The notes beneath the pieces are model-generated. The model was not told where the DNA came from and ran no database searches. It was given only the letters and a program-made list of their open reading frames with translations. The translations under genes were made by a program, and so were the position numbers. From contig MHBH01000061.1 of NCBI GenBank assembly GCA_001804805.1, positions 1-64,000 of the forward strand: a stretch of DNA of 64,000 nucleotides. Reading direction: 5' to 3'. Each line of letters opens with the position of its first letter. Position 1 is the stretch's first letter. This document shows, one piece after another, positions 16,986 to 51,475 of the stretch. This DNA comes from Lentisphaerae bacterium GWF2_49_21. GTDB taxonomy: Bacteria; Verrucomicrobiota; Lentisphaeria; Victivallales; GWF2-50-93.

Positions 16986-17012
16986 GTTGGAGTTCACAGC
17001 TTTAGCGTGTCC
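16986..17012 (+). repeat. family A 3' repeat, copy 1
   Basis: GTTGGAGTTCACAGCTTTAG followed by CGTGTCC, in the sense direction about 90 bases after the mannosidase stop. Confidence 0.8.
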
Positions 17013-17199
17013 TGATTTTTCATCCTGGCTGCTCTTTTGTCGAAATCCAAATTCTTCCTATCAACCTTCTAAATAATTGATCTAATAATGAAAAGTGCAG
17101 ATTAAATGTAAAGTGAATTTACGACAATGACTCCATCTGTACCCCGTTGGACTATATACCACTTGTGCTGTAAAGTACTTTTGAACACAAGGGTGCTTT

Positions 17200-18768
17200 A
17201 TGTGTAAAACGACAATGTTGCCTTCTCTGCTCTTTCTTCTATTTATTTTTGCAGTCTGTGGAAAAGCAGAAGAACCGACTGGATCGAATCCAACTTCTGC
17301 TAATTATCTTGACAAGGCATATCCAAAACAGGAATTGGATAAAATAATCCATATGGGAATGACTTCTGAAGAAATCATCAAGATATTCGGGGAACCATAT
17401 TATAAAAGTCCTACCTCGGGTGTTGAAAAGCACATAGACAACTTCTTATATATGATTAATCCGATTAATGTTAAAGCTAAGAATAACGACAAGGTTATTA
17501 GCGGGTTCACTGTAAGCTTTGTTGACAACAAGGTAGAAGTTTGGGATATTAGTACAACATCAATGGCAAAGAAAAGTGATAATGCCAAAGCCGATAAGCC
17601 AGCAGAAACTCAGCCAGTCGCAGATGGCAAATCTCTTGAAAGGGCAGATAAGTTGATTGTAGATAAAAAATATTCCGAGGCTATTGGAATTTATGAAATA
17701 TTTGCAGAAAAAGGAGATGCTTATGCCCAGTATATGATAGGGGGGATGTTTTTTAAAGGATTGGGGGTGGCGCAGGACTATAAGGTAGCGTCTCAGTGGT
17801 TTATGAAAGCCCTAAAAAATGGTTCACCTGGCGGGGCGTACGGATTAGGATTAATGTACCAAGAAGGATGGGGTTTTGCGAAAGACTATAAAATAGCGGC
17901 TTCTTATTACTCTTTGGCAGTAACCAGAATTGATAGCTCAACCCATTTAATGATGAGTAACATACCCAATGTAGATGTGGAAATTATAAGTGATGGACGT
18001 CAAATAGGGAAAATAAATAAATTGCACAAAGTGGAATATGAAGCAGTTCTAAACGCCCAGCATAATTTGGCAGAACTATATTTCAAGGGTTTGGGTGTTG
18101 AGAAAAATTATGATTTAGCTTTAAAATGGGTGAGGATATCAGCTGAAAACGGGCTTCCTCAATCACAATACTCACTTGGGAGAATGTATTACGAGGGGAA
18201 AGGAGTTCAACAGGATTATCAAGAAGCTTCAACATGGGTCGAGAAGGCAGCAAATTCAGGGTTGCCAGAGGGGGAATATGTTTTGGGATGTTTATATTAT
18301 GAGGGTAAAGGCAAAGAACGTAATGTTGAAAAAGCTCTGGAATGGTTTAAAAGATCAGCAAATAAAAACTTTATTCCATCCTTCAACTATGTTGCATTCA
18401 TTTTAGCTGAAAAAGGAGATAACCTTGATGAAGCCAGGAAATTTGCCGAGAAAGCTGTCCAGGCGAATCCTGGTGTGGGTGAAAATGTAGATACTTTAGG
18501 ATGGGTTTTATACAAACAGGACAACTACGCTGAAGCCGTAAAACAACTTGAAAAAGCCGTAAATCTTTTACCAGATGACGCAGAAGTCAGAAGCCATCTT
18601 GCCGAAACCTATTTAAAACTTGGTGATAAGTACAAGTCTAAAGAGCAGTGGACGAAAGCACTCGACCTGAAGCCCGATAACAAGCTGAAAAAAGAGATAC
18701 AGGCAAAGATGGAGTCTCTTGACAAAAAAAGTTCCGACATACGGCCAACTCCAAGGGATGGTAAGTAA
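17200..18768 (+). CDS. exported Sel1/TPR repeat protein
   Basis: 522 residues with a hydrophobic signal (MCKTTMLPSLLFLLFIFAVCGKA). An SmpA-like segment may lie near residues 45-115 (MGMTSEEIIKIFGEPYY). From about residue 145 come six or seven Sel1-like repeats (AQYMIGGMFFKGLGVAQDYK, SQYSLGRMYYEGKGVQQDYQ), then TPR units at 410-500 (TLGWVLYKQDNYAEAVKQLEKAV). Such solenoids bind protein partners in the envelope. AAGGG precedes the ATG by 7 bases. Codon use is AT-richer than the mannosidase gene. It converges on rodA with only about 30 bases between stops. Confidence 0.8.
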   Translation: MCKTTMLPSLLFLLFIFAVCGKAEEPTGSNPTSANYLDKAYPKQELDKIIHMGMTSEEIIKIFGEPYYKSPTSGVEKHIDNFLYMINPINVKAKNNDKVISGFTVSFVDNKVEVWDISTTSMAKKSDNAKADKPAETQPVADGKSLERADKLIVDKKYSEAIGIYEIFAEKGDAYAQYMIGGMFFKGLGVAQDYKVASQWFMKALKNGSPGGAYGLGLMYQEGWGFAKDYKIAASYYSLAVTRIDSSTHLMMSNIPNVDVEIISDGRQIGKINKLHKVEYEAVLNAQHNLAELYFKGLGVEKNYDLALKWVRISAENGLPQSQYSLGRMYYEGKGVQQDYQEASTWVEKAANSGLPEGEYVLGCLYYEGKGKERNVEKALEWFKRSANKNFIPSFNYVAFILAEKGDNLDEARKFAEKAVQANPGVGENVDTLGWVLYKQDNYAEAVKQLEKAVNLLPDDAEVRSHLAETYLKLGDKYKSKEQWTKALDLKPDNKLKKEIQAKMESLDKKSSDIRPTPRDGK

Positions 18769-18801
18769 GGGATGAATCAGGTTAATGGTCTGTTCAACCC
18801 C

Positions 18802-19944
18802 TTACCAGATCGTCTGGCGGCGTGAATAGATCGACTGGATGAAGCCGAGGAAGACCATTGTCACTATCATAAATGTCCCTCCGTAGCTTATCAGCGGCAG
18901 AGGAATTCCGGTGATAGGCATGAGCTTTATGGTCATGCCGATGTTGACAAACGAATGTGCGAAGAACACACCCGCAATCCCGACGGCGATATACCTTCCG
19001 AAGTTGTCAGGTGCGAAAACAGCGGCTCTCAGGGCGGAGAATATCAGCAGACAATAAAGGAACACGACCGTCACCGCCCCGACAAAACCGGATTCCTCAG
19101 CTATAACGGAATATATGAAATCCGTATATGAGACATTCTTGGGGAGGAATCCAAGCGTGTTCTGTGTTCCCTGCATGAAACCTTTACCAAACGCACCTCC
19201 GCTGCCGACGGCAAGCTGGGACTGAAGACTGTTCCAGCCGCGGTTCTCCGGATCGCGTTCCGGATTAAGGAAGACGCGGATCCGCTCCTTCTGGTATTCC
19301 TTCAGGAACGGATATATCGACGGAACAGCTGCGGCGGCCAGGAAAAGCCCGAGGAAGATCCATTTCCATTTCAATCCGGCCGAGAACAGCACTGCGCAGA
19401 TCATAGGTATGAAAACGATGCTGGTTCCAAGATCAGGTTCGATGACAACAAGAAGGAAGGGCACTCCGCAGGCAACTCCAAGAATGAAGAGATGGGTGAG
19501 TTTATTCACGTCAAATCCTTTTATCGAAAGCATCCAGGCAGCCATGAGCAGGACCCCGAACTTGGCGAATTCCGAGGGCTGGATGCTTACCCCTGCGAAG
19601 GAAAACCACCTCCGCGCACCGTTCAGATCGACACCGAGTTTCAGGACCAGGACAAGCCCAATCAGGCATGCCAGATAGAAGAAGGGGGTGAACTCCAACA
19701 GCTTCCTGTAGTCCAGGAAGAAGGCCATTAATATCCATACGGCAAATCCCATGCCCGCCCATATGAGCTGTTTCTTCCACAGGAAGGCAGCCTTGTCGCC
19801 CACCTGCTGTCCTGTCCCGTAGATGAACACCACCCCGAAGGTGATAAGCCCGATCATCGCAATAAGCTGTATGAAATCAACTTTTGCGAATATGCCAAGG
19901 ATACGGCTCTTCAAATCTTTCCTGGATTCTTCCGGATAAGACAT
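18802..19944 (-). CDS. rodA: RodA-type SEDS peptidoglycan polymerase
   Basis: About 380 residues and ten predicted membrane helices. SEDS signatures are present: NGARRWFSFAGVSIQPSEFAK, EPDLGTSIVFIPM, and the C-terminal GIPLPLISYGGTFM. RodA polymerises lipid II during side-wall elongation, usually with a class B penicillin-binding protein, which is not in the window. I use the ATG opening MSYPEESRK, 10 bases after the preceding gene's stop, instead of a longer frame that would overlap it by 80 bases. It is the last gene of nadD - rsfS - unknown - rodA. Confidence 0.92.
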   Translation of the reverse strand: MSYPEESRKDLKSRILGIFAKVDFIQLIAMIGLITFGVVFIYGTGQQVGDKAAFLWKKQLIWAGMGFAVWILMAFFLDYRKLLEFTPFFYLACLIGLVLVLKLGVDLNGARRWFSFAGVSIQPSEFAKFGVLLMAAWMLSIKGFDVNKLTHLFILGVACGVPFLLVVIEPDLGTSIVFIPMICAVLFSAGLKWKWIFLGLFLAAAAVPSIYPFLKEYQKERIRVFLNPERDPENRGWNSLQSQLAVGSGGAFGKGFMQGTQNTLGFLPKNVSYTDFIYSVIAEESGFVGAVTVVFLYCLLIFSALRAAVFAPDNFGRYIAVGIAGVFFAHSFVNIGMTIKLMPITGIPLPLISYGGTFMIVTMVFLGFIQSIYSRRQTIW

Positions 19945-19954
19945 TAGGTCACCA

Positions 19955-20569
19955 TCAAACAATCTTTTTTCTGTTTTCTTCCATGAGACGGAGTATCTTC
20001 TCCCTTGCCAGCAGAAGCTTGCAGGACTGTTCATTCATCTTGGCCGCAAGATCCGGCTGAAGACGGGTCACTTCGTTGGCAAGGCCGATGATGTCATTGA
20101 TCGTTGCATTCATCCTCTTGCAGCTGGCGACAACCAGATGCGGCATGTCGGATGGCATCTCCATCACTCCGATAATCCTCGAAACAAGGATTGCATACAG
20201 GCAAGCACCCCTGACTCCAAGATTCATCGTTTCAGGATCGAACGAAGCCACATAGGTCTTTGTCCAGGCATAGGCAAATTCGAGGATCCTCCTGTAGATT
20301 TCCGCGCCCTGGAGACTTTTCCAGTCTTCGGGAAGATAAGAGTCCTCGTCGGGATCTCCAAACTGGCATTCATAAAGCCTGTCATAGAGCAGATTGGCCT
20401 CGGGAAGATTCTTCTGCATCTTCCTGACCCTGTTGAAGAGGATCTCCTCCTCGTCGGGAAGATCGATGTAGCGGGGAAGCTCCTGCATATACGTGTTTAT
20501 GCACTGATCCTCCTCCCGGAAGATTGACTCCCACTTGAATTCATCCCATTTTTTGATGTCATCGGCCAT
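19955..20569 (-). CDS. unknown cytoplasmic protein coupled to rodA
   Basis: A soluble, acidic, mostly helical 204-residue protein with no signal peptide or membrane segment. I recognise no domain. Tryptophan-containing patches (KKWDEFKWESIF at the N-terminus, WKSLQGAE mid-protein) and a lysine/glutamate-rich helical tail are visible. Its stop is 10 bases from the rodA start, and rsfS and nadD precede it on the same strand, so it may serve cell growth or the cell-shape machinery. That is inference from position only. Confidence 0.75.
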   Translation of the reverse strand: MADDIKKWDEFKWESIFREEDQCINTYMQELPRYIDLPDEEEILFNRVRKMQKNLPEANLLYDRLYECQFGDPDEDSYLPEDWKSLQGAEIYRRILEFAYAWTKTYVASFDPETMNLGVRGACLYAILVSRIIGVMEMPSDMPHLVVASCKRMNATINDIIGLANEVTRLQPDLAAKMNEQSCKLLLAREKILRLMEENRKKIV

Positions 20570-20589
20570 AGTCTCAGATCAATTATTTG

Positions 20590-20658
20590 GACAGGATTAC
20601 ATGATTTCCATGATACTCCTAATTTTAATTCATCCTGTCAATCCAGTTATCCTGTCAA
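20590..20658. repeat. family F CAGGAT repeats
   Basis: ACAGGATTACATG and CATCCTGTCAATCC..TTATCCTGTCAA, an imperfect inverted set between the unknown gene and rsfS. A similar ACAGGATAACAGGATTTACA lies at 62821. Confidence 0.55.
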
Positions 20659-20688
20659 CTGAATTTGATTTCAGCATATTGTATTCTG

Positions 20689-21117: not shown

Positions 21118-21172
21118 TTATCTTCCTCCAGTTAAAATATTTTCGATTGACGATTTCCAATTACCTATATTT

Positions 21173-21823: not shown

Positions 21824-22098
21824 GGAACACATCCTCCTTTGTCCTCCGCCGGATGACTACGGAGGACAGGCAGAAAAGAATAAACCGAGGAACACGATAT
21901 TACGGAAAACTTCAATTACTGCCGAGACGGCTGTACCACATTCTTAAATGTACATATTCACTGACGGATCCGCCGCGGCGGATTCAGTGAATATATACCT
22001 TCTTCGCCAATTCCCGTTTCTTGTTTTCTACTTTCTAAATTCTACTTTTATTTCTCACACTCCAGAACTCCCGCACTTCCGAACTTTAGAACTTCCCT
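21824..22098. other. intergenic, repeat fragments only
   Basis: Contains a truncated CTGTACCACATTCTTAA element (21932-21948), related to the inverted repeat at 53937, a CCGCCGCGGCGG palindrome near 21969, and a tract of related GAACTTC words just after the permease stop. No gene seen. Confidence 0.45.
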
Positions 22099-28257: not shown

Positions 28258-28282
28258 GTAGGAGTTCACAACTTCAGTTGTG
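28258..28282 (+). repeat. family A-like repeat with perfect stem (antisense)
   Basis: GTAGGAGTTCACAACTTCAG followed by TTGTG. Stem CACAACT-TC-AGTTGTG is perfect. It overlaps the epimerase stop codon and, unlike the other copies, is antisense to that gene. Confidence 0.7.
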
Positions 28283-30289: not shown

Positions 30290-30314
30290 CACAACTAAAG
30301 TTGTGAACTCCTAC
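30290..30314 (-). repeat. family A-like repeat with perfect stem
   Basis: Minus strand GTAGGAGTTCACAACTTTAG then TTGTG, in sense 34 bases after the URO-D gene stop. Confidence 0.7.
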
Positions 30315-30347: not shown

Positions 30348-31499
30348 TCACGCCGCCTGGCTTTTCGCACTCAGCTCTTTCCAGTATGCAAGGACATCCG
30401 CTGCAGTCTTGAATCCTGCCTTTATAAGGGCTTCATTGACGCCCATGTTCGCAGCGAGGACTCCCTGGGAAGCGTATTTGTGAATACGGCCAATGAAGGC
30501 CTCTGCGCTTTCGTCAGGGAACCTGGGCCAGCCGTTGAAATTCACTTTTCCGGCTTTTGCGAACTTCTCCATGTTGGCGTAGAAGTCAATTTCTTGTTCA
30601 TGACCGGGGATATGCCCGAAATTAAGGGCCTTGAGCTCGGGCTGTTCGAGTATTGCGTCCGTCAGCGCTTCATTGTAACCGCAGTAATGAACCCAGGCGC
30701 CGCCAAACTCGCGGGCAAGCTTTTTCGTATATGGAATGGCGAATTCACGGATCTGTTCATCTCCAAGCAAAGCCGTCGTATCTTCACAGATGCGAATGCC
30801 GAAGCTGTCGGAATAAATGGCATTGCTGTGATGAAGAGATGTCATTGGTTCTCCTATGGCTTCCTTCATCCAGCGGTGTGCCTTGATTCCCAGTTCCAAG
30901 CAGATCCCCATGAGATGATGGACAAACTTCGGATCGTCGTAGAGTTCCAGGAAAATATCGTCGCCCATCATCAGATGCGCGAGATCAAACGGTCCCTGCG
31001 TGTCCATGACATATATCGGCAGCGAATCCCCCATGGTATCCTTGAAGTAATGCATCATCTCAAGTCCGCGTGCAAAACTGCCTTGCGATTTGATGTCATC
31101 GGGCTTCAACTTGATTATCTGCTCCTTTGTCAGGCGCTCATGCAGCCAGGGCATCTTGTCGGGGAAGGATTCCTGTTCAAGACCAAGGCATGCCAGCATG
31201 ATTCCCGTACCGAGGTTCGCCCTGATCGACGGGACTGAATCACTGCGTCCGTTGCCGGCGCCACAGGCTCCTCTTGCTTCACGGCAGAGCATCTTCACCT
31301 TGTCAGTAAACACCTGCTGGAGATCGTATGCCGGTATCTCCTCCTGCTTTTTTGTCAACTTGTCTCCGATGAAGAGGAGAGGCACATCCAGCTTTTCCCT
31401 GCGCCACGCCTGGCACTGGCGCTTCCTGCTCATGCTGATATGGTCGTAGTCGAAATCCAGATATTCCTTCAGCCTGCTGACGTCAAAGTTGTCGTTCAT
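30348..31499 (-). CDS. uroporphyrinogen decarboxylase-family (MtaA/HemE-like) protein
   Basis: 383 residues of the URO-D TIM-barrel family. VHYCGYNEAL near residue 280 resembles the His-x-Cys zinc site of the cobamide-dependent methyltransferases (MtaA/MtbA) rather than true HemE, and MDTQGPFDLA is the substrate-side block. Lentisphaerota encode many such proteins, often beside AraC regulators, as here. The likely role is methyl transfer or demethylation of a small substrate; no corrinoid protein is nearby. AGAAGGAG lies 7 bases from the ATG. A long open frame exists on the opposite strand but it is a shadow of this gene. Confidence 0.85.
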   Translation of the reverse strand: MNDNFDVSRLKEYLDFDYDHISMSRKRQCQAWRREKLDVPLLFIGDKLTKKQEEIPAYDLQQVFTDKVKMLCREARGACGAGNGRSDSVPSIRANLGTGIMLACLGLEQESFPDKMPWLHERLTKEQIIKLKPDDIKSQGSFARGLEMMHYFKDTMGDSLPIYVMDTQGPFDLAHLMMGDDIFLELYDDPKFVHHLMGICLELGIKAHRWMKEAIGEPMTSLHHSNAIYSDSFGIRICEDTTALLGDEQIREFAIPYTKKLAREFGGAWVHYCGYNEALTDAILEQPELKALNFGHIPGHEQEIDFYANMEKFAKAGKVNFNGWPRFPDESAEAFIGRIHKYASQGVLAANMGVNEALIKAGFKTAADVLAYWKELSAKSQAA

Positions 31500-33364: not shown

Positions 33365-33445
33365 AATCCTGAAAGGATTCAATAATATAGCCTAGGGTTT
33401 CAACCCTAGGTATACGTCCCAAAAACATTTCGTCCTGAAGGGACG
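33365..33445 (-). repeat. hairpin set at the 3' side of the RAYT gene
   Basis: Three hairpins: AATCC-TGAAA-GGATT, CCTAGGGTT-TC-AACCCTAGG (33391-33410), and CGTCC-TGAAG-GGACG. The last ends four bases before the transposase stop. The middle one recurs in inverted orientation on the other side of the gene. Confidence 0.8.
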
Positions 33446-33448: not shown

Positions 33449-33895
33449 TCAATCCCAGATATATTTGTCATCATATTTGACCTTGTGCTTTTCCAACAGA
33501 AGTAAAAATTCTTTTTCATATGAATATTTCTCATGATGACTCTTCTGATTCTTAATATATCTGTCTACCTGTTCTGCAAGAGACTCACTGACCGAAAAAA
33601 CACCATATCCCCTCTGCCATTGAAACATTGAAGCGCCTTTCTCATGAATCCACTTTGATGATCCTCCCTTTATGTAGCGCATCATATCTGACATCGAAAC
33701 TGAAGGATGAAATAGCGCTATTAAATGAACATGGTTCATAGTTCCACCTATTTCCAGAACTTCTCCCTTCTGCCCCCTGACAATACCACAGATATACGGG
33801 TAAAGTTCATTCTCGAATTCAGGCTGTATGAGATTGATTCTGTTCTTTGTTGAAAAAACCACGTGGTATAAGAGATTTGACAAAGACTGGGACAT
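33449..33895 (-). mobile_element. IS200-like / RAYT (Y1) transposase
   Basis: 148 residues of the Y1_Tnp superfamily. GGTMNHVHLIALFHPS carries the HxH metal-binding pair (NHVHL), the fold begins LYHVVFSTKNR, and VDRYIKNQKSHHEK contains the tyrosine region (YIKNQ) expected of the single catalytic tyrosine. Such enzymes cut and join single-stranded DNA at hairpins; those bound to REP elements are RAYTs. Inverted hairpin sets flank the gene at 33365-33445 and 33911-33993, so a mobile or REP-like unit of about 630 bases is present. The ATG has AAGGAG 5 bases upstream and the gene appears intact. Confidence 0.9.
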
Positions 33896-33910: not shown

Positions 33911-33993
33911 TCCGCCCCTTCAGGGCGGATAATTTCGTTACTCAAGACCTAGGGTTGAAACCCTAGGCTGTATTATTTTACGCATAAATGCGT
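33911..33993 (+). repeat. hairpin set at the 5' side of the RAYT gene
   Basis: TCCGCCC-CTTCA-GGGCGGA, CCTAGGGTT-GA-AACCCTAGG (33948-33967) and ACGCAT-AA-ATGCGT. Reverse-complemented, the first two repeat the order and sequence of the set on the other side, so they are inverted ends. Confidence 0.8.
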
Positions 33994-36633: not shown

Positions 36634-37731
36634 ATGAGAATATTGCTATCTTCAATAATCCTGATGTTCCTGTCATCCTTCACCGGGCTTTACGCGGAAA
36701 GTTTCGAGGATGTCAAGGACTCAATTGTCATAATTGACACGGAAACCGGCAGGAGGTGTGCGATACTTGTAAAAATGGACGGTATCCTATATATACTCAC
36801 TTCCCAGGACGCCCTAACAGGAGGCATTGTTTCCATAAAAACTCTTTCTGGAAAGATACTGCAGGCCCAGTCCTGCGAGGTTCCGGAGGAGCAGATCGGC
36901 CTTCTGAGGATGAAGACGGATTTTCCTGAGGCAAAAGACGTCACGATCAATGGCTCATCCAAGAACAGCGGGGTTGAAGTCTTCAAGACCGATCTTAAAA
37001 TGGGAATAATTATTGAGCAGCAGACAGGCATTGAAAAAAACAACGCCCTGAAGTTCCCCGACGAGAACGGTGCGCCTGTCACATTCATCGAGGAAGCTGT
37101 CGGAAGTCCGGTAGTGAACAAGAAGGACAACAAAGTCCTAGGAGTGGTCGGGGCCAGGGGTTTTGCAGTACAGAACTGCGGCTTTGCCTGGACGGAAATG
37201 AACAAGGATCTTGTTGGCAGGAAAAACGAACTTCAGATTCTCAAGCAGGACATGAAATGGTCCAAGGCGGATCTGACACAGCTTATCAAGCAGGGTTCTC
37301 TTATTGATGAAGCGGAAGCTTTCCTTTATCCTTTCACCGTACTTGCAGATTTCTGGTGCAATAATCCATACGCCTCCATTGTAATCAAGCCCGAACAGCC
37401 GGAAAGGATGAAACCCTGGATTGAAACCCAGAACCTGATGGTCAAGGAAATCCCGACAATACGCTTTAAAATACAGGAGGGCTCGAAACTCATGGGGGAC
37501 ACCATGAAGAATGTCTCGTCGGGCCAGTTGAAGGACAAATCCAAGATTATTGGGAAAAGGCTTACCGACTTCGCGCCCGTCTACCAGAAAACACTCGCAA
37601 GCCCGAACATCAAGTGGGAATCCTCCTATTTTAAAAAGAAAGCCGAAGACCTTTCAACCGTCTTCAAAAATCTCGCCGAGGGACTCCGCAAGGAGGCTGA
37701 GGACAACACAAAGGTAAATCCGCCGCTTTAA
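36634..37731 (+). CDS. exported trypsin-fold protein with lost catalytic residues (copy 2)
   Basis: About 365 residues with a signal peptide (MRILLSSIILMFLSSFTGLYA). Block by block it parallels the preceding gene: YILTSQDALTGGIVSI replaces the histidine strand, EEAVGSPVVNKKDNKVLGVV stands for the serine loop without serine, and DDEAEAFLYPF resembles the paralogue's IDGYMEV region. The aspartate strand is also lost (EEQIGLLRMKTD). It follows its paralogue by 5 bases, so the two are co-transcribed. ATG is used; a TTG three codons before it overlaps the upstream stop. Family B and A repeats follow the stop. Confidence 0.72.
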   Translation: MRILLSSIILMFLSSFTGLYAESFEDVKDSIVIIDTETGRRCAILVKMDGILYILTSQDALTGGIVSIKTLSGKILQAQSCEVPEEQIGLLRMKTDFPEAKDVTINGSSKNSGVEVFKTDLKMGIIIEQQTGIEKNNALKFPDENGAPVTFIEEAVGSPVVNKKDNKVLGVVGARGFAVQNCGFAWTEMNKDLVGRKNELQILKQDMKWSKADLTQLIKQGSLIDEAEAFLYPFTVLADFWCNNPYASIVIKPEQPERMKPWIETQNLMVKEIPTIRFKIQEGSKLMGDTMKNVSSGQLKDKSKIIGKRLTDFAPVYQKTLASPNIKWESSYFKKKAEDLSTVFKNLAEGLRKEAEDNTKVNPPL

Positions 37732-37740
37732 GATTGCGTG

Positions 37741-37770
37741 ATTGGATTGATGGATGACTGGATGATTGGG
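37741..37770 (+). repeat. family B GGATGATTG tract
   Basis: ATTGGATTGATGGATGACTG and GGATGATTGG, 10 bases after the second trypsin-fold gene. Confidence 0.5.
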
Positions 37771-37789: not shown

Positions 37790-37815
37790 GTTGGAGTTCA
37801 CAGCTTTCTGTGTCC
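37790..37815 (+). repeat. family A 3' repeat, copy 2 (variant stem)
   Basis: GTTGGAGTTCACAG-CTTT-CTGTGTCC. The stem is CACAG/CTGTG, different from the other copies but fully paired. Sense orientation, 58 bases after the stop. Confidence 0.75.
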
Positions 37816-37867
37816 GCCATAGCTTCCTAGCGACGGCAGAAGCGCGTCTTGTATATTGTTTTTCTAA

Positions 37868-37940
37868 TTACCAGTTCCAGGTATCAAGTTACGAGATACA
37901 ACTCCCCATCCATCCAACAATCCAGTCATCCATTCATCCG
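37868..37940 (-). repeat. family C and B tracts behind tsaE
   Basis: Minus strand reads GGATGAATGGATGACTGG then AACTTGATACCTGGAACTGG, in sense just after the tsaE stop. Confidence 0.5.
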
Positions 37941-39386: not shown

Positions 39387-40889
39387 ATGTTCGAAACTGT
39401 ACAGTTTGACATTTTTACAGATATATTCCTCGTTGCTGTCCACATAATAATCTGCTCTGTCGTCGCCATCCACATCCTTCTCAACAAGCACGAAGAACCC
39501 GTATCGGCGATCGCCTGGCTGATCATCGTCTTCTCCTTCCCGCTGGCTGGAACTTTTTTCTATCTTATTTTCGGAATAAACAGGATCTACACCAAGGGCG
39601 TCGACATCCAGAACGCAAATGATTTTGTGAGTTCACACAAGAACAAGCCTGAACTTGTCTCCGCGGCCAAATATTTTGAAACCATAAACAAGTATATCTT
39701 CAGGACGGAAAAGACGGAGGATTATCCGTTGTTCGGGACAAGCCTCGACAAACTGCTTCCGGACACCCTCCCCCTCAAAGGCAACAAGATAGAACTTCTT
39801 CTCGACGGGACCAAGGCGTACCCGAAGATGATCGAGGCCATCGAAAAGGCGACAAGCAGCATCCATCTGCAGTCATTCATCATCATGGACGACGCCGTCG
39901 GGAGCACGATCCTCAACCATCTCGAACGCAAGGCGAAGAACGGAGTCAAGGTCAAAGTCATCTACGACAAGTTCGGAAGCGCCAAGGCCCTCTTTTCATT
40001 CCTGATGAGAAAATACGGGAGGAACATACCAAATTTCGAAATGCGCCCGTTCTCGCAGTTCACCATCAAATCCCCATGGGGCTTCCAGCTCAGGAACCAC
40101 CGCAAACTGCTCGTGATCGACGGCAGGACCGCCTTTGTCGGTGGAATCAACATCAGCAGCGACAATATCAGCGGACTTAGCAGTCCTGACCACTACATCC
40201 ACGACCTCCACTGCATGTTGACGGGACCGGCCGTCGGCGCGCTACAGCTCTCATTCCTGAGGGACTGGCATTATGTTTCAACAGCCCACCCGGTCGAACT
40301 TCTCATCGAGGAAAACCTGCCAGTTCCGGAGGCCTGCGGCGATTCGATAGTCAGGATCGTCGACTCCGGCCCCGGACAGAACTATCAGGCTTCTGAGAAG
40401 CTTTTCATGACCGCCGCCTCGACCGCACAGAAATATGTCTGGATCATGACCCCGTATTTCGTTCCCGACAAACCGTTCTGGAAACTCCTCTGCATGGCCG
40501 TAGCCCGCGGAGTCGAGGTAAGGATAATTGTCCCGAAGAAGAACAACCATTGGTACGTCCAGTATGCCGCACAGAGCCTCTACGCCACCCTTCTCGAGGG
40601 AGGCATCAAGATCTACGAGAAGGAGGGCTCATTTTCGCACGCCAAGGCGGTCCTTGTCGATGGTCTCTGGGTGATCATGGGCTCCAGCAACTGCGATGTC
40701 CGCAGCTTCAGGCTCAACTACGAACTTGACTTCACCGTAATGAATGGCGATTTCCTGGCCGTCCTGCACTCGCAGTTCCTGAAGGAGATGTCCGAATCGA
40801 AGGAAGTCCTGCTAGAGAATGTCCTGCAGAAGAAAGTGCCCCAGCAGCTCTTGGAAAACGCCTGCTCGCTCCTGACGCCGATCCTGTGA
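39387..40889 (+). CDS. cls: cardiolipin synthase (phospholipase D family)
   Basis: 500 residues. Two N-terminal membrane helices (about 10-30 and 42-62) precede two HKD motifs, NHRKLLVIDG (H238) and SHAKAVLVDG (H418), the pair of phospholipase D active sites. The family joins two phosphatidylglycerols to cardiolipin in the inner membrane. KQNNHWY and GSSNCDVRSFRLNYELDF are typical. AAAGGG lies 8 bases before the ATG. The gene is divergent from thiL, with which it shares an inverted-repeat control region. Family B and A repeats follow its stop. Confidence 0.94.
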   Translation: MFETVQFDIFTDIFLVAVHIIICSVVAIHILLNKHEEPVSAIAWLIIVFSFPLAGTFFYLIFGINRIYTKGVDIQNANDFVSSHKNKPELVSAAKYFETINKYIFRTEKTEDYPLFGTSLDKLLPDTLPLKGNKIELLLDGTKAYPKMIEAIEKATSSIHLQSFIIMDDAVGSTILNHLERKAKNGVKVKVIYDKFGSAKALFSFLMRKYGRNIPNFEMRPFSQFTIKSPWGFQLRNHRKLLVIDGRTAFVGGINISSDNISGLSSPDHYIHDLHCMLTGPAVGALQLSFLRDWHYVSTAHPVELLIEENLPVPEACGDSIVRIVDSGPGQNYQASEKLFMTAASTAQKYVWIMTPYFVPDKPFWKLLCMAVARGVEVRIIVPKKNNHWYVQYAAQSLYATLLEGGIKIYEKEGSFSHAKAVLVDGLWVIMGSSNCDVRSFRLNYELDFTVMNGDFLAVLHSQFLKEMSESKEVLLENVLQKKVPQQLLENACSLLTPIL

Positions 40890-40892
40890 AGA

Positions 40893-40930
40893 ATGGATGA
40901 ATGGATTGCTGGATGATTGGATGACTGGGG
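40893..40930 (+). repeat. family B GGATGATTG tract
   Basis: ATGGATGAATGGATTGCTGG then ATGATTGGATGACTGG, directly after the cls stop. Confidence 0.5.
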
Positions 40931-40975: not shown

Positions 40976-41002
40976 GTTGGAGTTCACAGCTTTAGCGTGT
41001 CC
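40976..41002 (+). repeat. family A 3' repeat, copy 3
   Basis: GTTGGAGTTCACAGCTTTAG then CGTGTCC, sense to cls, 86 bases after the stop. Pairs with copy 4 as an inverted repeat. Confidence 0.8.
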
Positions 41003-41045
41003 GATGATTAATTAAACGCCTTGCTTATTATTATTTCAATCAAAT

Positions 41046-41072
41046 GCACACGCTAAAGCTGTGAACTCCAAC
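41046..41072 (-). repeat. family A 3' repeat, copy 4
   Basis: Minus-strand GTTGGAGTTCACAGCTTTAG then CGTGTGC, sense to the pseudopilin gene ending at 41097. Confidence 0.8.
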
Positions 41073-41099
41073 GAATTTCAAGTCATAAGTTTCCAATCA
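41072..41099 (-). repeat. family C repeat containing a stop codon, copy 1
   Basis: Minus strand TGA-TTGGAAACTTATGACTTG then AAATTC; its first three bases are the stop codon of the pseudopilin gene, and family A copy 4 follows directly. Confidence 0.65.
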
Positions 41100-41615
41100 C
41101 TTCTTATTCTCCTCAAGCCATTTCGTCCCAGCGAATCGCTGGACCTGACCGTCCGCAAAGAGGATGTTTCCGAATTTTATATGGTTGTCTGGCTTATCCC
41201 AGACAATCGCCAGCTCAGTATTTTTAAGTGCTTTTTCATCAAGCCCCTCACGGATGATATAGGAGCAGTTCTGGTCTGTGATGTCTTCAACGGATTTTAT
41301 GGAATTTGCCGTTGACGGACAAACCAACAACTTGAGATCTTTGAGATATCCTTGAGAATAGAGTGTTTTAAAACCGAGGGCACCTTGATAAGGTGGATAT
41401 AATTTATAATCCTGCGCATACATGTTTAAAGCTTGTCCTATTTGTTGAAGGTTTTTCTTGCAATTAGCCCGTGCTCGTAATTCTGGTTCCCGATGCCCCG
41501 TGTGTATATACAATGGGGTAGAGAATATAAAAATTACAATGCATATATAAATCCAACATCTTATTGCCAAGTATTTATCTTTCTTTTGTCCCTTATTGTC
41601 TTCTTTCTCACTCAT
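41097..41615 (-). CDS. H-X9-DG pseudopilin-like secreted protein 1
   Basis: 172 residues. One membrane helix (about 18-38) follows a lysine-rich N-terminus; a type IV prepilin cleavage motif is not obvious. The body has KKNLQQIGQALNMYAQDY, YPPYQGALGF, LVCPST and the C-terminal H-x9-DG (H..ADG) with RFAG after it, all DUF1559-like features of PVC pseudopilins. The ATG is 7 bases after GGGGG; an in-frame GTG five codons before lies in that ribosome site. It is the last of three related genes on this strand. Confidence 0.85.
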   Translation of the reverse strand: MSEKEDNKGQKKDKYLAIRCWIYICIVIFIFSTPLYIHTGHREPELRARANCKKNLQQIGQALNMYAQDYKLYPPYQGALGFKTLYSQGYLKDLKLLVCPSTANSIKSVEDITDQNCSYIIREGLDEKALKNTELAIVWDKPDNHIKFGNILFADGQVQRFAGTKWLEENKK

Positions 41616-41663
41616 TTTATCATCCCCCACTTAAGAAATCTCTAATTTAATGCTCAAGAACAA

Positions 41664-41690
41664 TTACACGCTGAAGCTGTGAACTCCAAC
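41664..41690 (-). repeat. family A 3' repeat, copy 5
   Basis: Minus strand GTTGGAGTTCACAGCTTCAG then CGTGTAA, sense to the pseudopilin gene ending at 41715. Confidence 0.75.
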
Positions 41691-41717
41691 TAATTTCAAA
41701 TTTCGAATTTCCAGTTA
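41690..41717 (-). repeat. family C repeat containing a stop codon, copy 2
   Basis: Minus strand TAA-CTGGAAATTCGAAATTTG then AAATTA; the TAA is the gene's stop. Family A copy 5 follows directly. Confidence 0.65.
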
Positions 41718-42233
41718 CTTTATATTCTCCATCCAATTTGCGCCGGCGAAACCACCGGAACGATCCCAGTCGATAAAAATTATATTCCCATATTTTGAAT
41801 GATTGATCGGCTTGTCCCAGGCTATTGCACTGTCAACAGAATTTGCTTCATTCAATCCGGCACGGTATACATATGAGCAATAATCCTCTTTGACCTCATT
41901 ATTTTTACGAGCCTTATCCCAGTCTTTAGTAGATGGGCACGTATACATCCACATGTTTTCGAGATAATCACCGGAGCGGAGCATCTCAAGCCCCCTTGCC
42001 CCATTATAAGGCGGATACTCTCCCTTGTACTCCTGTGAATACATCCTCAAGGCCAGGCCAACCTGCTTGAGATTACCAAGGCAGCTAATCCTCAGGGATT
42101 TTTCGGATGCTTTATGGCCAGTACCGGGAAGCAAGCTGAAAAATATCACAAGGATTGCAAGAACAATTATCAGTTCAAAAAGAGAGAAATTGCTGTATCT
42201 TTTGCTCTTTACCAACCTTTTATTTCCATTCAT
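41715..42233 (-). CDS. H-X9-DG pseudopilin-like protein 2 (prepilin motif, degenerate tail)
   Basis: 172 residues. NFSLFELIIVLAILVIFFSL is a type IV prepilin helix with the conserved Glu at position 5, although Asn stands where Gly is normal before the cleavage site. The body repeats the family blocks (LGNLKQVGLALRMYSQEY, YPPYNGARGLEMLRSG, YTCPST). The C-terminal motif is H-x9-D followed by Trp, so the DG is lost (HSKYGN..FIDWDRSGG). AGAGGGGGGAG lies 7 bases before the ATG. Middle gene of three paralogues. Confidence 0.85.
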   Translation of the reverse strand: MNGNKRLVKSKRYSNFSLFELIIVLAILVIFFSLLPGTGHKASEKSLRISCLGNLKQVGLALRMYSQEYKGEYPPYNGARGLEMLRSGDYLENMWMYTCPSTKDWDKARKNNEVKEDYCSYVYRAGLNEANSVDSAIAWDKPINHSKYGNIIFIDWDRSGGFAGANWMENIK

Positions 42234-42262
42234 TTTAACTCCCCCCTCTTTTAGTATTCATT

Positions 42263-42286
42263 AAGAACAGCTCTTACGAGCTTAAT
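42263..42286 (-). repeat. family E hairpin repeat, copy 3
   Basis: Minus strand ATTA-AGCTC-GTAA-GAGCT-GTTCTT, same stem as the copy at 6684 but lacking the TTGTAGT flank. Confidence 0.6.
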
Positions 42287-42331
42287 CCGCCTTCTCCTTT
42301 TGACTGGCTACGGTGGAGAGGTTACAAAAAT

Positions 42332-42358
42332 GCACACGCTAAAGCTGTGAACTCCAAC
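42332..42358 (-). repeat. family A 3' repeat, copy 6
   Basis: Minus strand GTTGGAGTTCACAGCTTTAG then CGTGTGC, sense to the fusion gene ending at 42397. Confidence 0.8.
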
Positions 42359-42359
42359 A

Positions 42360-42399
42360 AATTCCTAGTTTCAAGTATCAAGTTTCGAGTTACCAGTCA
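42360..42399 (-). repeat. family C repeat containing a stop codon, copy 3
   Basis: Minus strand TGA-CTGGTAACTCGAAACTTG then ATACTTG; TGA is the stop codon of the fusion gene. Family A copy 6 follows directly. Confidence 0.7.
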
Positions 42400-44679
42400 C
42401 TTCGTATTCTTCATCCAGTCCGTACCGGCGAAACCGGCTGCATGTCCGTCTGTGAACAGGGCATTTCCGTATTTCACATGGTTCTTCGGCTTGTCCCAGA
42501 CCACGGCGATGTCAACCGAGGAGGATTCCGTAAGCCCGCCACGGTAGTCGTACGAACAGTTCTTGTCCGTGATTTCATTGTTGTCCGGTATCGTGTCGGT
42601 GGTCGAGGGGCACGTATACATCCTGACATTTTCAAGGTATCCTCCTGAGCGGAGCATCTCGAGCCCCTTTGCACCGTCATAAGGCGGGAAGCATTCCTTG
42701 TTTTCCTGCGAATACATCCTGATTGCAAGACCGATCTGCTTCAGGTTGCTTGTGCATGAGATCGTCCTCGACTTCTCCCTGCCGCATTTCAAGGAAGGGG
42801 CAAGTCCGAATGCAACCAGCGACATTATAAAAATAAGCACGGCAATTTCTACGGTGCTGGGATTCTTGAAGCCTGATTTAGGGTGTTCAGCAGGACCGTT
42901 TTCGTGTTCTTCCTCCTTTCCCCCTCTGCTGAAGACACTGATCATCGCACCTATGCCTAGAAGGACAAATGAAAGCATCACAAAATCCCAGTATTCCAAC
43001 TTATAGAGAAGGTTGAACGCCCCGCGCATCAACGGGATCGAAAGAAGCAGTACCACCGACTTGTCACCGCAGCGTATCCAGTATGCCACGGCAAGACCGG
43101 TGAAGATCAGCGATGAAGCAAGTATGTAGTATCCTGAATCCGAGACATGGAAGCTCGCGGCCATCGCGATGAACGCGGCTATCACAGATATCAGCAGCGG
43201 GAATTTTTTAGCGAAATAAAGCGCAAACACCACGACTCCGACGCCCCATATGAGAAAAAGGGCCGATGGAAGGCTCAATCCCCAGCCGGCCAGTTCACCG
43301 GTTATCTGCGGGCATGAAGACATGCCGATGACTCCGAGCGTATATCCGCCCAGGACAAGCAGCGCCTGCCTGAAGTAGAGTCCTGCGGACAAAACGACCA
43401 GCGCCAGGACGCCGAAGAACAGGTTCGTATTGGTAATTCCGGGTACTCGGATGCTGCTGGCAATTGAAATGAGGAAGCACAGGAAATATGGCACGGCGAC
43501 CCATGCGAATCTCCCCTTTCTACTTATGAGGAAAACCGCAACCAGCGACAGTCCGCCTATGAGCATGAGAGCCGGCGGATTCCAGAGGAAGCCAGGGCTG
43601 AAGCTGTAATCTATGATGAACAGCCTGTTTGCGGAGGATATGCCGATAATGGCAAGAGGGATCAGCGATACAATCATTTCCAGAACGCCTGTCTTCTTCC
43701 CGTAGATCCTGAGCATCTCTATCTGGAGGAGGCTGAAGAGGATTATCAGCGGGATGAAATCCCCGAATGAATATTTGAACTCGAAGACATAGCCTATCGC
43801 GATCTGATGACCGATCCCGGAAAGAATAAGGAACAAGGAGAATACCCATGCCATTCCGCGGGATAGGACAAACTGCCTGCCCTTGCCACGTTCGAGTTCA
43901 GCGCCATCAGGCGTCCTGAGCGCGCCTATCAGCATTGCCACCCCTGCTCCGAGCATGATCAGCCAGCCACCGAGCCAGACGTTTCTTAACGTATCCTTGA
44001 TTGCCGGATCATCCGATATCACATACGCCATGATGGGCGATGTAAAGAAGTTCCAGACGAAGAAAAGCATCATTCCCCAAAGCATGTATCTGCTAAAATC
44101 AATTTTCATCTTTTTACCCATGAGCAGGATCTTCGCGGCGGCTATGATCGAGGCTATCAGTCCAACTATGAGCGCCACTTGGCGGTTGTCGTTGGACAGG
44201 CTGTCGATCCCGATCGCAGTTCCGACGATGAAGAGAGCGACATAGAGCATGATTGAGACAGCGTCATCAAGTGATTTCTTCAGCAGCATGAGCAGGCCCA
44301 GGACACAGAAAAGTGCAATTTCATATAGGGAGAGGGTGGAAACACATGACAGTTTCGCCCAGAGCGTGTCATGTTTTTCGAATATGGGGCCGAATACGCC
44401 CGAAATTCCATAGATGAGTGTCATTACGCTGAGACAGTAGAGTATGTTTGCGCCAGTTCCGATCACATATTTTTTCATGATAGCCGAAAAATTCCGCTGC
44501 ATCCTGAAAATGAATTCATTGATCTGGATTGTCGGGTCGGGATGTCCGGGCGGGGCTTTTGCAGAGTCGGAATCTTCTTTCAATTCGTTGAATTTCTTTT
44601 TTACCGCCTCCTTTTGCTCGTCTGTGAGGTTCTGGACTCCTGGAATGCCATCCGTGAGGAAATTCGTGTCCGAGTTCAT
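42397..44679 (-). CDS. multi-pass membrane protein fused to an H-X9-DG pseudopilin domain
   Basis: About 760 residues. An N-terminal polar segment with a helical QKEAVKKKF stretch is followed by roughly 16 membrane helices (about 70-610), a pattern like DUF2157-type proteins. A linker and one further helix (about 625-645, VEIAVLIFIMSLVAFGLAPS) lead into a full pseudopilin-like domain (LKQIGLAIRMYSQEN, FPPYDGAKGLEMLRSG, YTCPST, and H-x9-DG). This tail matches the two following genes almost block for block. I start at MNSDTNFL, 7 bases after AAGGAGG; the nine residues before it lie across that site. Expression is from a promoter mirrored with that of the regulator. Confidence 0.8.
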   Translation of the reverse strand: MNSDTNFLTDGIPGVQNLTDEQKEAVKKKFNELKEDSDSAKAPPGHPDPTIQINEFIFRMQRNFSAIMKKYVIGTGANILYCLSVMTLIYGISGVFGPIFEKHDTLWAKLSCVSTLSLYEIALFCVLGLLMLLKKSLDDAVSIMLYVALFIVGTAIGIDSLSNDNRQVALIVGLIASIIAAAKILLMGKKMKIDFSRYMLWGMMLFFVWNFFTSPIMAYVISDDPAIKDTLRNVWLGGWLIMLGAGVAMLIGALRTPDGAELERGKGRQFVLSRGMAWVFSLFLILSGIGHQIAIGYVFEFKYSFGDFIPLIILFSLLQIEMLRIYGKKTGVLEMIVSLIPLAIIGISSANRLFIIDYSFSPGFLWNPPALMLIGGLSLVAVFLISRKGRFAWVAVPYFLCFLISIASSIRVPGITNTNLFFGVLALVVLSAGLYFRQALLVLGGYTLGVIGMSSCPQITGELAGWGLSLPSALFLIWGVGVVVFALYFAKKFPLLISVIAAFIAMAASFHVSDSGYYILASSLIFTGLAVAYWIRCGDKSVVLLLSIPLMRGAFNLLYKLEYWDFVMLSFVLLGIGAMISVFSRGGKEEEHENGPAEHPKSGFKNPSTVEIAVLIFIMSLVAFGLAPSLKCGREKSRTISCTSNLKQIGLAIRMYSQENKECFPPYDGAKGLEMLRSGGYLENVRMYTCPSTTDTIPDNNEITDKNCSYDYRGGLTESSSVDIAVVWDKPKNHVKYGNALFTDGHAAGFAGTDWMKNTK

Positions 44680-44818: not shown

Positions 44819-44887
44819 GGAGGTCTCGACGTTGCGCCGATCCCTCCAATGATGCTACGCATCAAATTCAAAGAAAGGACAAATAAT

Positions 44888-45719: not shown

Positions 45720-45723
45720 TATC

Positions 45724-45755: not shown

Positions 45756-45760
45756 TATTT

Positions 45761-47509: not shown

Positions 47510-47573
47510 AATAACTCTCCTATGTATAATTAAATATTTATTTTACAATTGAATGGCTCTCATCCGAACGCGG

Positions 47574-48233: not shown

Positions 48234-48413
48234 TTTCCCTCTTGCTTGGTCCCCGGACAAATAATAGTGGTCGACGGATATTATGTCAAACCACATTTCA
48301 TTTTCATGCCTGATAAAGACGTATTCATGTTTCTCAACAACTTGATTATCTGTGTTTATCGACCTATTTTCTATGGCGATTGAAAACCTAGGATTTTTAA
48401 CCAGAGGGCATAT
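48234..48413. promoter_or_regulatory. divergent region between carbonic anhydrase and CocE-like genes
   Basis: 180 bases with AT-rich words on both strands; no palindromic operator picked out. The longer carbonic anhydrase frame runs through it but is not supported. Confidence 0.4.
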
Positions 48414-50222
48414 ATGAACATTGCAAAAAGAATGCAAGTTGTTTTTCTTTTCGCAATATCTTTGATTTTATCCTCTTGTATTTCAGACAGGCCTGCCATC
48501 GTCTCAACCACAGATAAAAATGCCGGATCCGGCGTCTATATTGAAAAGAACGTGCTTGTCCCCATGCGTGACGGCGTCAAACTGATGGCAAACATATATC
48601 GCCCGGCTGAAAAAGGGAGTTTTCCTGTCCTGATATTCCGCACTCCCTACAGCAAGGATGAAGGCGATCCAAACAATGAAAGCACATTCCTCAATGCGGT
48701 AAAACGCGGATATGCGATGGTGATTCAGGACATACGGGGCCGTTACAGATCAGAAGGCGAGTTTGCCCCATACAAGAATGAAGGCAAAGACGGCTACGAT
48801 ACCATTGAATGGGCGGCCGCCCAGCCCTGGTCGGACGGAAATATCGGAACCTTCGGTCTTTCATATCCGGGCGCCGTCCAGTGGCTTGCCGCTGTTGAAA
48901 ATCCGCCCCACCTCAAGGCGATGGTTCCGGCAATGTGCTTTTCCACCATCAGGCAGTTCATTTATTTCGGCGGGGTCTTTGAACTCGACTGGACTCAGTG
49001 GTGCTACTGGTATATGTCCCCTGACGCCAGGATCAAGAAAAATTTGCCAGGACCGAAGACCTGGGAGGATGCTGAGGCTGAATATAAAAGGATAGGAATT
49101 GATGCAATAGAAGGATATCTGCCCACCTTGGACATGCCTTATCTCAAGGATACCGCCCCTTATTATTATGAATGGATAAGGCATCAGCCATATGATCCGT
49201 ATTGGGATTTCGGTGATTTGCATGATAAATACGGAAAGGTCAAGGTGGCGGTCCTGAATCTTTCAGGATGGCATGACGAGGCTTATGGGGCGGAAGGCGC
49301 GACAACAAATTTCCTGGGCCTCTTGAAGGAGAGGAAAGGAGAAAAGGACCCGAAGACAAAACTCATCATCGGCCCATGGAGACATGGAGTTGGAAATACA
49401 AAAAGGACAAATGCAGGCGACAGGGATTTCGGCCATTTGGCGAAACTTGATTATGACAAGGTTGTACTCGACTGGCTTGATTGCCATGTGAGAGGGATCA
49501 AGAACGAGGCCGCCACTTGGAAACCTGTGAAGGTTTTTGTCATGGGGGACAATAAATGGATTGAAACGGATGACTGGCCTTTGAAGAATACAAAATATAC
49601 TCCGATGTATCTTTGCAGGGGCAAGGACGGCAGGGGCTCCTTGAAAGCAGAACAGACAACAGGGCTCGATAAAAGTTCATTCGTTTCCGATCCTGGAAAT
49701 CCTGTCAAAGACAAATACGGGACCAGCATGGGTGCTTTTGATTTAAGCTACATAAGCACAAGGCCGGATGTCCTGACTTTTGATACGGAAGCATTGGACA
49801 TGGATATCGAAGTTGTTGGAAATATCGGAGCTGAAATCTATCTTTCTGCAGATGCGCCTGACTGCGATCTGTTTGTCAAGGTCCTGGATGTCCATCCCGA
49901 CGGCAAGGCATATAATGTCATGCCCCCGGGGAAGGAAGTCATGCGGGTGAGCTACAGGGACAGGACTCCTGAGAGGAAGCTTCTTCAGCCGGGACAGCAG
50001 GTCAAGTTGAACTTTGAAAACATGCGGACAGGAAATACATTCAAAAAAGGTCATGTGGTGAGGGTGTGCATTACAGCAAGCTGGTATCCTATCTACTCAA
50101 GAAACCTGCAGACAGGCGAGCTTGAAAGTCTTAGTGCAAAAATGCAGAAGGCGGTTATCAACATCCATCATGACGCAGAACATCCTTCAAGGATAATATT
50201 GCCAGTAATTCCTTCGGAATGA
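48414..50222 (+). CDS. CocE/NonD-type serine hydrolase, lipoprotein
   Basis: 602 residues of the X-Pro dipeptidyl-peptidase S15/CocE family. The signal ends LILSSC with a lipobox. IYRPAEKGSFPVLIFRTPYSK, QDIRGRYRSEGEF and the nucleophile elbow GLSYPGAVQW are diagnostic; the C-terminal beta-sandwich follows from about 440 (DFTVK-like strands with FKKGHVVRVCI). The family hydrolyses acyl or peptide bonds including cocaine esters, glutaryl-7-ACA and X-Pro peptides; the natural substrate here is unknown. GAGGG lies 6 bases before the ATG. The membrane-fusion protein gene follows after about 60 bases on the same strand. Confidence 0.9.
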   Translation: MNIAKRMQVVFLFAISLILSSCISDRPAIVSTTDKNAGSGVYIEKNVLVPMRDGVKLMANIYRPAEKGSFPVLIFRTPYSKDEGDPNNESTFLNAVKRGYAMVIQDIRGRYRSEGEFAPYKNEGKDGYDTIEWAAAQPWSDGNIGTFGLSYPGAVQWLAAVENPPHLKAMVPAMCFSTIRQFIYFGGVFELDWTQWCYWYMSPDARIKKNLPGPKTWEDAEAEYKRIGIDAIEGYLPTLDMPYLKDTAPYYYEWIRHQPYDPYWDFGDLHDKYGKVKVAVLNLSGWHDEAYGAEGATTNFLGLLKERKGEKDPKTKLIIGPWRHGVGNTKRTNAGDRDFGHLAKLDYDKVVLDWLDCHVRGIKNEAATWKPVKVFVMGDNKWIETDDWPLKNTKYTPMYLCRGKDGRGSLKAEQTTGLDKSSFVSDPGNPVKDKYGTSMGAFDLSYISTRPDVLTFDTEALDMDIEVVGNIGAEIYLSADAPDCDLFVKVLDVHPDGKAYNVMPPGKEVMRVSYRDRTPERKLLQPGQQVKLNFENMRTGNTFKKGHVVRVCITASWYPIYSRNLQTGELESLSAKMQKAVINIHHDAEHPSRIILPVIPSE

Positions 50223-50284
50223 AAGTCCGGGAATGGAAATATGGTTAAACTGGAAAATGTAAAAGACAATACATGGAGGGACAT

Positions 50285-51427
50285 ATGAGAAAGCTACTTG
50301 CATTGCTAATTATTTCACTTTTTTATTTTACTGCCGCCGCGGAAGAGTTCATCGGGACTGTCGATCATTTCAAGACCGGCGACCTCGGATTTGAAAACCA
50401 GGGAAGGATTGTAGACATACAGAGAATAGGGCTGAGGGTGTCTTCAATAATATATGATGAGGAAAACAAGGTTGTCAGCAGTGGGGACGTCGTAGCGTCC
50501 CAGGACACTTCCCTATGCGAGGCGGCGGTGGCTGTAAGCGAGGCCGAACTTAAACAGTCTGTTGCCGAACTCAAGGAGAAACAACTCGACCTTGAGAGGA
50601 GCAAGCAGCTAAAGGAAAAGAATGCCCTCAGCCAGAAACAAATGGACACTTCCGAGAAGGAATACGACATGGCGGTTGCCGCCCAGAAAAGGGCCGAGGC
50701 ATCTCTCCGAACCGCAAAATATAATCTTGATGCCTGTTTCCTGAGGGCTCCGTTTGACGGCGAGATAGCGGCGCAGCTGGCTTCCGAAGGAACCTGGGTT
50801 GACCAGGGGGATTCTGTTGTCACCCTTACTGTCTTTTCAATAATGAAGGTGGTGGTGGAAGTTCCAGATAATTTAACAAGGAAGATTTCCCTGACCAACA
50901 AGATAAGTGTCGTTTCCCCTGTCGACGGTGAACACATCAGGCCAACCTGGTTCAATGACAACACTTCCGAATCAAAAAATATCACGCTGCTGGTTGCTAA
51001 CAGGAAAACACCTGTATATCAGCTGACTGAGGAGGAGAAAAAGCTTCCTCTCGTGAGCAATGTGTCATTTGTCATCGGCAAGCATGGTGAGGATTTCAGG
51101 AAAACCATCTGGATTCCGGAAAACTCCATCATCAAGGATGAGAAAGGCCCTTTCGTCTGGTTTGCAAAAGGACAGAACATGAATGAGAAGACAAATGTAG
51201 TCGACAGGCAGTTCATCGCCGGGAAGAAGTATGTGAAATTACTCGACAAGTTCAACAATCTCGGTATAAACACCTTCAGGTGCATCGAAAATCCCGGGGA
51301 CATAAAACTCTACGACATAATAATTGTCAATCCTCCGAAAGATCTCGAGGACGGAAGCAAAGCCGTCTATCAGCCAAACCGATGGCTCTTGCGCAAAGGG
51401 GACCAGGTCAAGGTGATTGTTGAATAG
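50285..51427 (+). CDS. membrane-fusion/HlyD-type efflux adaptor, orphan
   Basis: About 380 residues with a signal peptide (MRKLLALLIISLFYFTAAAE). After a short strand region, a long coiled coil (about 85-145, SEAELKQSVAELKEKQLDLERSK and EYDMAVAAQKRAEASLRTAKYNLD) and the lipoyl-like half FLRAPFDGEIAAQLASEGTWV mark an RND/HlyD-type adaptor. No inner-membrane pump or outer-membrane factor is adjacent, so the partner is elsewhere or this is a divergent use. I choose the ATG of MRKLL, 5 bases after GGAGGGA; the codons before it form the ribosome site. Confidence 0.82.
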   Translation: MRKLLALLIISLFYFTAAAEEFIGTVDHFKTGDLGFENQGRIVDIQRIGLRVSSIIYDEENKVVSSGDVVASQDTSLCEAAVAVSEAELKQSVAELKEKQLDLERSKQLKEKNALSQKQMDTSEKEYDMAVAAQKRAEASLRTAKYNLDACFLRAPFDGEIAAQLASEGTWVDQGDSVVTLTVFSIMKVVVEVPDNLTRKISLTNKISVVSPVDGEHIRPTWFNDNTSESKNITLLVANRKTPVYQLTEEEKKLPLVSNVSFVIGKHGEDFRKTIWIPENSIIKDEKGPFVWFAKGQNMNEKTNVVDRQFIAGKKYVKLLDKFNNLGINTFRCIENPGDIKLYDIIIVNPPKDLEDGSKAVYQPNRWLLRKGDQVKVIVE

Positions 51428-51448
51428 GATTGATGGATAAGAAGAATG

Positions 51449-51475
51449 CACACGCTAAAGCTGTGAACTCCAACA
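51449..51475 (-). repeat. family A 3' repeat, copy 7
   Basis: Minus strand GTTGGAGTTCACAGCTTTAG then CGTGTGC, sense to the gene ending at 51542. A family C tract follows (51476-51497). Confidence 0.8.

Follow-up and report, generated by a model that had tools for sequence, protein, structure and literature searches.

Single copies of a short hairpin repeat, here called family A, are about four times commoner after genes in the sense than in the antisense direction in the genome of Lentisphaerae bacterium GWF2_49_21 and two of its congeners, whereas copies arranged in inverted pairs show no such preference. Judged by its sequence and layout, family A is very probably a repetitive extragenic palindromic (REP) family with REPIN-type inverted doublets that occurs in a group of uncultured Lentisphaerota and is mobilised by a cognate RAYT (REP-associated tyrosine transposase), i.e., a Y1/HUH single-strand transposase. 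A RAYT-mobilised REP family whose solitary copies insert strand-specifically, giving the sense bias, is the best explanation of the whole, and a reasonably probable one.

The original prediction concerned the window, by which we mean the whole stretch of 64,000 nucleotides that was analysed (contig C61 of a 5.9-Mb, 91-contig assembly, G000). It listed seven copies of GTTGGAGTTCACAG, and all seven were found, exact, where it had placed them; a scan of the window with up to 3 mismatches to GTTGGAGTTCACAG gave 17 matches against 4.7 expected. The short distance to the stop codon of the sense gene was also borne out for every copy. The solitary copy at 16986..17010 (+) lies in sense 91 bp past a GH38 alpha-mannosidase gene (13766-16894). 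That at 37790..37847 (+) lies in a convergent gap, 58 bp past the stop codon of a gene that ends at 37731, and is broken, its loop being split by a 33-bp insert of the CCATAGC...GCGACGG type, another palindromic repeat; there is no REP in the aligned syntenic gap of the congener G003. The copies at 40976..41000 (+) and 41048..41072 (-) are the left and right halves of a REPIN-like inverted pair with a 29-bp arm that is 100% complementary, the left half lying in a convergent gap 86 bp past a PLD-domain gene (39387-40889) and the right half 24 bp past a DUF1559 gene (41097-41630). The copies at 41666..41690 (-), a CTTC loop variant, and 42334..42358 (-) are in sense, 24 bp past a DUF1559 gene (41715-42233) and 38 bp past a DUF1559-domain gene (42397-44679), respectively, and the group from 40976 to 42334 is without counterpart in the aligned syntenic gap of the congener G001. 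The seventh copy, 51450..51474 (-), lies in a convergent gap, 67 bp past a minus-strand gene (51542-53818) and 25 bp past a plus-strand gene (50285-51427). Two copies of a perfect-stem subtype had been reported as well and are both present: GTAGGAGTTCACAACTTCAGTTGTG at 28258..28282 (+), antisense between two minus-strand genes, and GTAGGAGTTCACAACTTTAGTTGTG at 30290..30314 (-), in a convergent gap and sense to one neighbour, 33 bp past the gene at 30348-31499.

Each of the seven copies thus reads in the direction of the gene just ended, as had been described, but the agreement of seven out of seven is weak evidence within the window. The copies at 37790, 40976, 41048 and 51450 count as sense whichever way they are turned because their gaps are convergent, and those at 41048, 41666 and 42334 each trail a DUF1559 paralogue and may therefore be duplications. 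With the inverted pair and the broken copy at 37790 also taken into account, the informative and independent evidence in the window comes to about two copies. The orientation claim rests on the genome-wide count, not on the window copies.

For this count, stretches around the listed copies were taken from the own genome and genes were called with a home-made dicodon model, whose short ORFs may be spurious; 147 copies were placed, a few on the last contigs being left out. Across the 5.9 Mb, the family-A pattern gives 122 copies when head and tail are fixed and 139 when up to three mismatches are allowed, and a reversed-pattern control returned 0. Only 11 of the 147 placed copies fall inside called ORFs, mostly weak fill-in ORFs. 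Solitary copies were those without another copy, inverted or direct, of 17/25 or more matches within 230 bp. In tandem (same-strand) gaps of the own genome, solitary copies are split 40:9 between sense and antisense (p=9e-6), and 33:5 when the genes on both sides are strongly supported. Fetched stretches of the two congeners G002 and G003, which cover most copies with some left out, gave solitary splits of 18:6 and 13:3, and a first sample of relatives, overlapping this set, gave 21:7. Pooled over the three genomes, the solitary tandem-gap copies stand at 71:18 (p=1.3e-8). In contrast, copies with a mate show no such orientation bias in any of the three genomes (19:16 in the own genome, 14:11 in G002 and 6:6 in G003).

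Solitary short copies number 16 in convergent, 44 in tandem and 4 in divergent gaps, against 18.8, 75.5 and 31.3 kb of gap, respectively, and they lie a median 77 bp from a stop codon; those in convergent gaps are nearer to the sense gene in 10 of 16 cases, which is no clear preference. The predicted genome-wide bias in strand and 3' position is thus upheld, by the pooled split over three genomes and by divergent gaps being poor in copies. A second REP family of the same genome, GGAGCGCYGGC..., is unrelated to family A and is split 23:3 in favour of sense. Other REP families in this genome have mixed orientation or too few copies, so that not all are sense-biased; several families and subclasses were compared, and single p-values near 0.02 are to be weighed accordingly. 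A sense/antisense bias relative to genes was not found in the REP/RAYT literature searched, the coverage of which was incomplete, and is absent from passages of two papers on GTAG-tagged REPs (PMC2817692, PMC3733652).

The copies of family A are headed by GT[T/A]G and form a hairpin, bulged or perfect, with a TTTA/TTCA loop; their flanks contain CT, which stands on both sides of many copies (TCTT-GTTGG...GTGTCTTG). REPs are palindromes of 20-40 bp, high in copy number and mainly extragenic, and family A, a 25-bp bulged hairpin with up to 139 copies, agrees in size and placement. The GTAG-type head reads GTTG in the main subtype, and GTAG itself is found in two others, the perfect-stem subtype and the one that flanks the RAYT of G001. 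Inverted doublets, as in REPINs, are mostly head-out in the three genomes (20:5, 13:1 and 10:2), with spacing fixed at 48 bp in G002 and G003, yet solitary copies are abundant and undecayed. Passages of PMC2817692, PMC3733652 and PMC3116915 define REP/RAYT elements by such features. Some copies are absent at syntenic gaps in relatives, a lineage-specific presence and absence; among 13 gene pairs matched across species, the REP is common to some and not to others, a count that is biased because the stretches were fetched around REPs. Targeted insertion, one of the candidates originally proposed, is right in part, in that the repeats very probably are RAYT-mobilised REP elements.

The RAYT gene of the own genome (G000:C20:81920-82525, in L049/L051; L049:1351-1959) lies between inverted family-A copies, with two further family-A copies outside the pair, and a 61%-identical homologue in G002 (L052) has the same -,+ RAYT -,+ layout. 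In G001, copies of the GTAGGAGTT perfect-stem type flank a homologue of 55% identity. The arrangement known as a REPtron, a Y1 gene between inverted repeats, is seen at L049/L051 and L052 with family A, and at L055 with the perfect-stem type. Against the NCBIfam profile NF047646, 'REP-associated tyrosine transposase', the own-genome RAYT scores 79.5 bits (E=2.3e-22) with a cut-off of 80, and every RAYT tested came just under the cut-off. Its HUH motif reads NYYHLL, where the homologues have an intact NHYH; the difference may reflect a real loss or an assembly variant, and because of the change the own-genome RAYT may no longer be active. The two genes between which it has inserted on C20 are radical-SAM-like and carry CxxxCxxC-type motifs. 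Several other RAYTs and many other Y1 genes in these genomes have hairpin (REP) families of their own on their flanks, the own genome alone having 20 Y1-transposase matches. Two relatives, G004 and G005, carry family-A copies without a close RAYT, both assemblies being fragmented.

All the matches listed from the genome collection come from assemblies of Lentisphaerota, one of them under a record title that reads only 'bacterium', and within the order to which the window belongs the repeat is found chiefly in a single family. Rfam at its gathering threshold has no family for it, and our literature search found no work joining Lentisphaerota with repetitive extragenic palindromic sequences. As passages of Nunvar 2010 (PMC2817692) and Di Nocera 2013 (PMC3733652) describe them, GTAG-tagged REPs with RAYTs resemble family A in their GTAG-type 5' head and short imperfect palindrome, in having more than 100 extragenic copies near 3' ends with tandem and convergent gaps favoured, and in a RAYT gene between inverted copies. 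Family A differs in that its head is mostly GTTG (GTAG in subtypes), in a GAGTT spacer ahead of the hairpin, and in its host, Lentisphaerota being a group not mentioned in passages of PMC3733652. With REPINs (Bertels and Rainey 2011, passages of PMC3116915), family A shares inverted head-out doublets tied to a RAYT; in P. fluorescens SBW25, however, singlets are decayed and make up 18% of copies, whereas solitary family-A copies are common and undecayed. The TnpAREP/REP group 3, in passages of PMC8266576, likewise has a TTTA loop and a CT beside the element that serves as cleavage site (in family A this likeness is one of sequence only), but the main subtype of family A has GTTG for GTAG, and the HUH motif of the own-genome RAYT is changed.

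Several other repeats were observed in the window and the genome. Octamer tracts of the GGATGATT/GGATGATTGGATGACTGG type start immediately past stop codons, in sense, at window positions 37732-37769, 40891-40928 (+) and 16913-16942, and another lies on the antisense strand at 37903-37939; the tract at 40891-40928, which follows the gene end at 40889 and precedes the REP, is nearly identical in G001, whose gap is without the REP. Heptamer tracts (AACTTGA/TACTTGA/AACTGGA...) begin a median 8 nt past stop codons (e.g., L178:4357, L214:4428 and window 42358-42396) and are split 19 sense to 2 antisense in tandem gaps, 9 of them having a family-A REP in sense within the next 90 bp. Some family-A hairpins are split by palindromic inserts of the CCGTAGC...GCGAAGG or CATCACGTG...CACGTGG types, i.e., are nested short repeats (L213:6278, L175:4595, L236:10685, a G002 site in L152/L346, and window 37790). 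A longer CTTC-type element of about 150 bp (GAGCTGATTTCAAAAATACGAAAAACGTTTGTTGCGGGAATAACGCTT-REP-CTTGGTATT...) has 23 copies (e.g., in L174, L179, L182, L191, L209, L215, L216 and L251) and was set apart from the family-A counts because it has no clear orientation bias and favours divergent gaps (10 copies). Further families of short hairpins, headed by GTAG or GGAG, occur in the window at 4810, 6652 and 6827; 30255 and 45475; 60244 and 61093; and 32454 and 45692.

The sole Rfam match in the window is Acido-Lenti-1 (RF01687, listed as an sRNA) at 33365-33410 (-), with an inverted copy at 33947-33977. The match forms one arm of an inverted repeat (31 bp, 97%) around an IS200/IS605-type transposase gene (33449-33895, -). 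The own genome has 55 matches to RF01687 and G001 has 43; they often come in inverted pairs approximately 80-175 bp apart, and with such numbers and pairing RF01687 resembles a repeat that is mobile or REPIN-like more than a single RNA gene. Among 30 loci fetched, an obvious transposase ORF lies near it at the window locus only.

For the orientation bias itself, we tentatively favour an origin in which solitary REPs are inserted strand-specifically into exposed DNA of the non-template strand. TnpAREP proteins, in passages of PMC8266576, recognise single-stranded REPs strand-specifically and cleave at an adjacent CT. If the RAYT likewise binds REP single strands in a strand-specific manner, a solitary REP would for that reason be mobile only as its GTTG-headed strand, which would enter the strand exposed by transcription (the non-template strand), or one coinciding with it, near gene ends. 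Insertion there would yield the sense orientation, and selection would clear insertions from genes and promoters, leaving mostly 3' copies. Inverted doublets would be unbiased because they present the REP on both strands. A narrower form, in which the RAYT inserts solitary REPs in a transcription-coupled way, so that orientation records the direction of transcription at insertion and doublets escape, is possible but doubtful. Target-site preference was considered as a cause and rejected: the 10 nt upstream of copies are T-rich and G-poor, but in REP-free gaps the two strands have sites resembling them by position weights equally often (48% sense).

In E. coli, REPs form RNA hairpins that are described as protecting 3' ends or tuning translation and decay in operons, and family-A REPs might likewise insert either way, with sense copies kept for such a benefit of the hairpin. 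The predicted fold is indeed stronger in sense (-6.9 vs -2.8 kcal/mol for family A, -7.9 vs -6.0 kcal/mol for the perfect-stem type), although the fold z-score against shuffles is modest (-1.1, family A). Past the hairpin the sequence is T-rich in sense but not in antisense (0.52 vs 0.12 T), yet the GGAGCGC family is equally biased without a U-rich tail. The median of 77 bp to the stop codon would also suit selection on RNA, as would an orthologous copy shared with G001 (L109/L247), identical in the two species while the surrounding gap has diverged; that copy is, however, itself antisense. No decayed solitary copies at 20-23/25 matches were found, which is again consistent with selection, but antisense solitary copies are no more decayed than sense ones, intergenic solitary copies in both orientations having 24-25/25 matches with a few very distant exceptions. 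This equality speaks against a function that only the sense RNA would have, and, since copies are near-exact or absent in both orientations, the decay test argues against sense-specific selection only. The undecayed solitary copies fit recent spread, unlike the outcome of sense-RNA selection alone. Termination, which the original prediction had offered as a role, finds no support as simple terminator replacement: other terminators are not depleted in sense-REP gaps, terminator-like sites occurring in 12/38 of these (32%) and 58/213 REP-free gaps (27%; p=0.56). On these grounds, we place strand-specific insertion first and RNA selection second, the latter being somewhat unlikely.

The gene link would be only apparent if insertion followed the replication strand, with REPs entering the lagging-strand template and genes mostly co-directional with the fork. 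IS608 and ISDra2, relatives of RAYTs, target that template (abstract of PMC6006769), which predicts sense copies for co-directional genes. Strand shuffles within contigs retain part of the agreement (mean 19.6/30), but the observed 25/30 exceeds them (permutation p=0.02), the REP follows the flanking gene in 7/10 cases where that gene runs against its neighbourhood, and the correlation with a leading-strand index is -0.01, in tests that have low power in a 91-contig assembly. The replication strand is probably not behind the bias. Alternatively, solitary sense copies could be leftovers of head-out doublets in which the downstream, antisense member was the one preferentially lost; the member beside the upstream gene in such doublets is the sense one, and passages of Bertels and Rainey (PMC3116915) see singlets as REPIN remnants. 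Nevertheless, this would require a one-sided preferential loss, and solitary sense copies are the best conserved short class (0.94 mean identity), unlike the decayed singlets of P. fluorescens, which makes such an origin improbable. Chance within one window, to which the scarcity of informative copies there had left room, is already refuted by the genome-wide count, 71:18 across three genomes (p about 1e-8) making it extremely improbable.

How the widespread RAYTs transpose is still poorly understood. A bias that solitary REPs show and paired ones lack, seen in three related genomes and with a second family, is a sequence-only handle on how a single-stranded element enters the chromosome, and any closed genome rich in REPs would allow it to be checked. 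If selection on RNA were the true cause, the same bias would instead mark a large set of 3'-end elements. Additionally, REP/RAYT systems are extended to a Lentisphaerota clade with several REP families and about 20 Y1-transposase genes.
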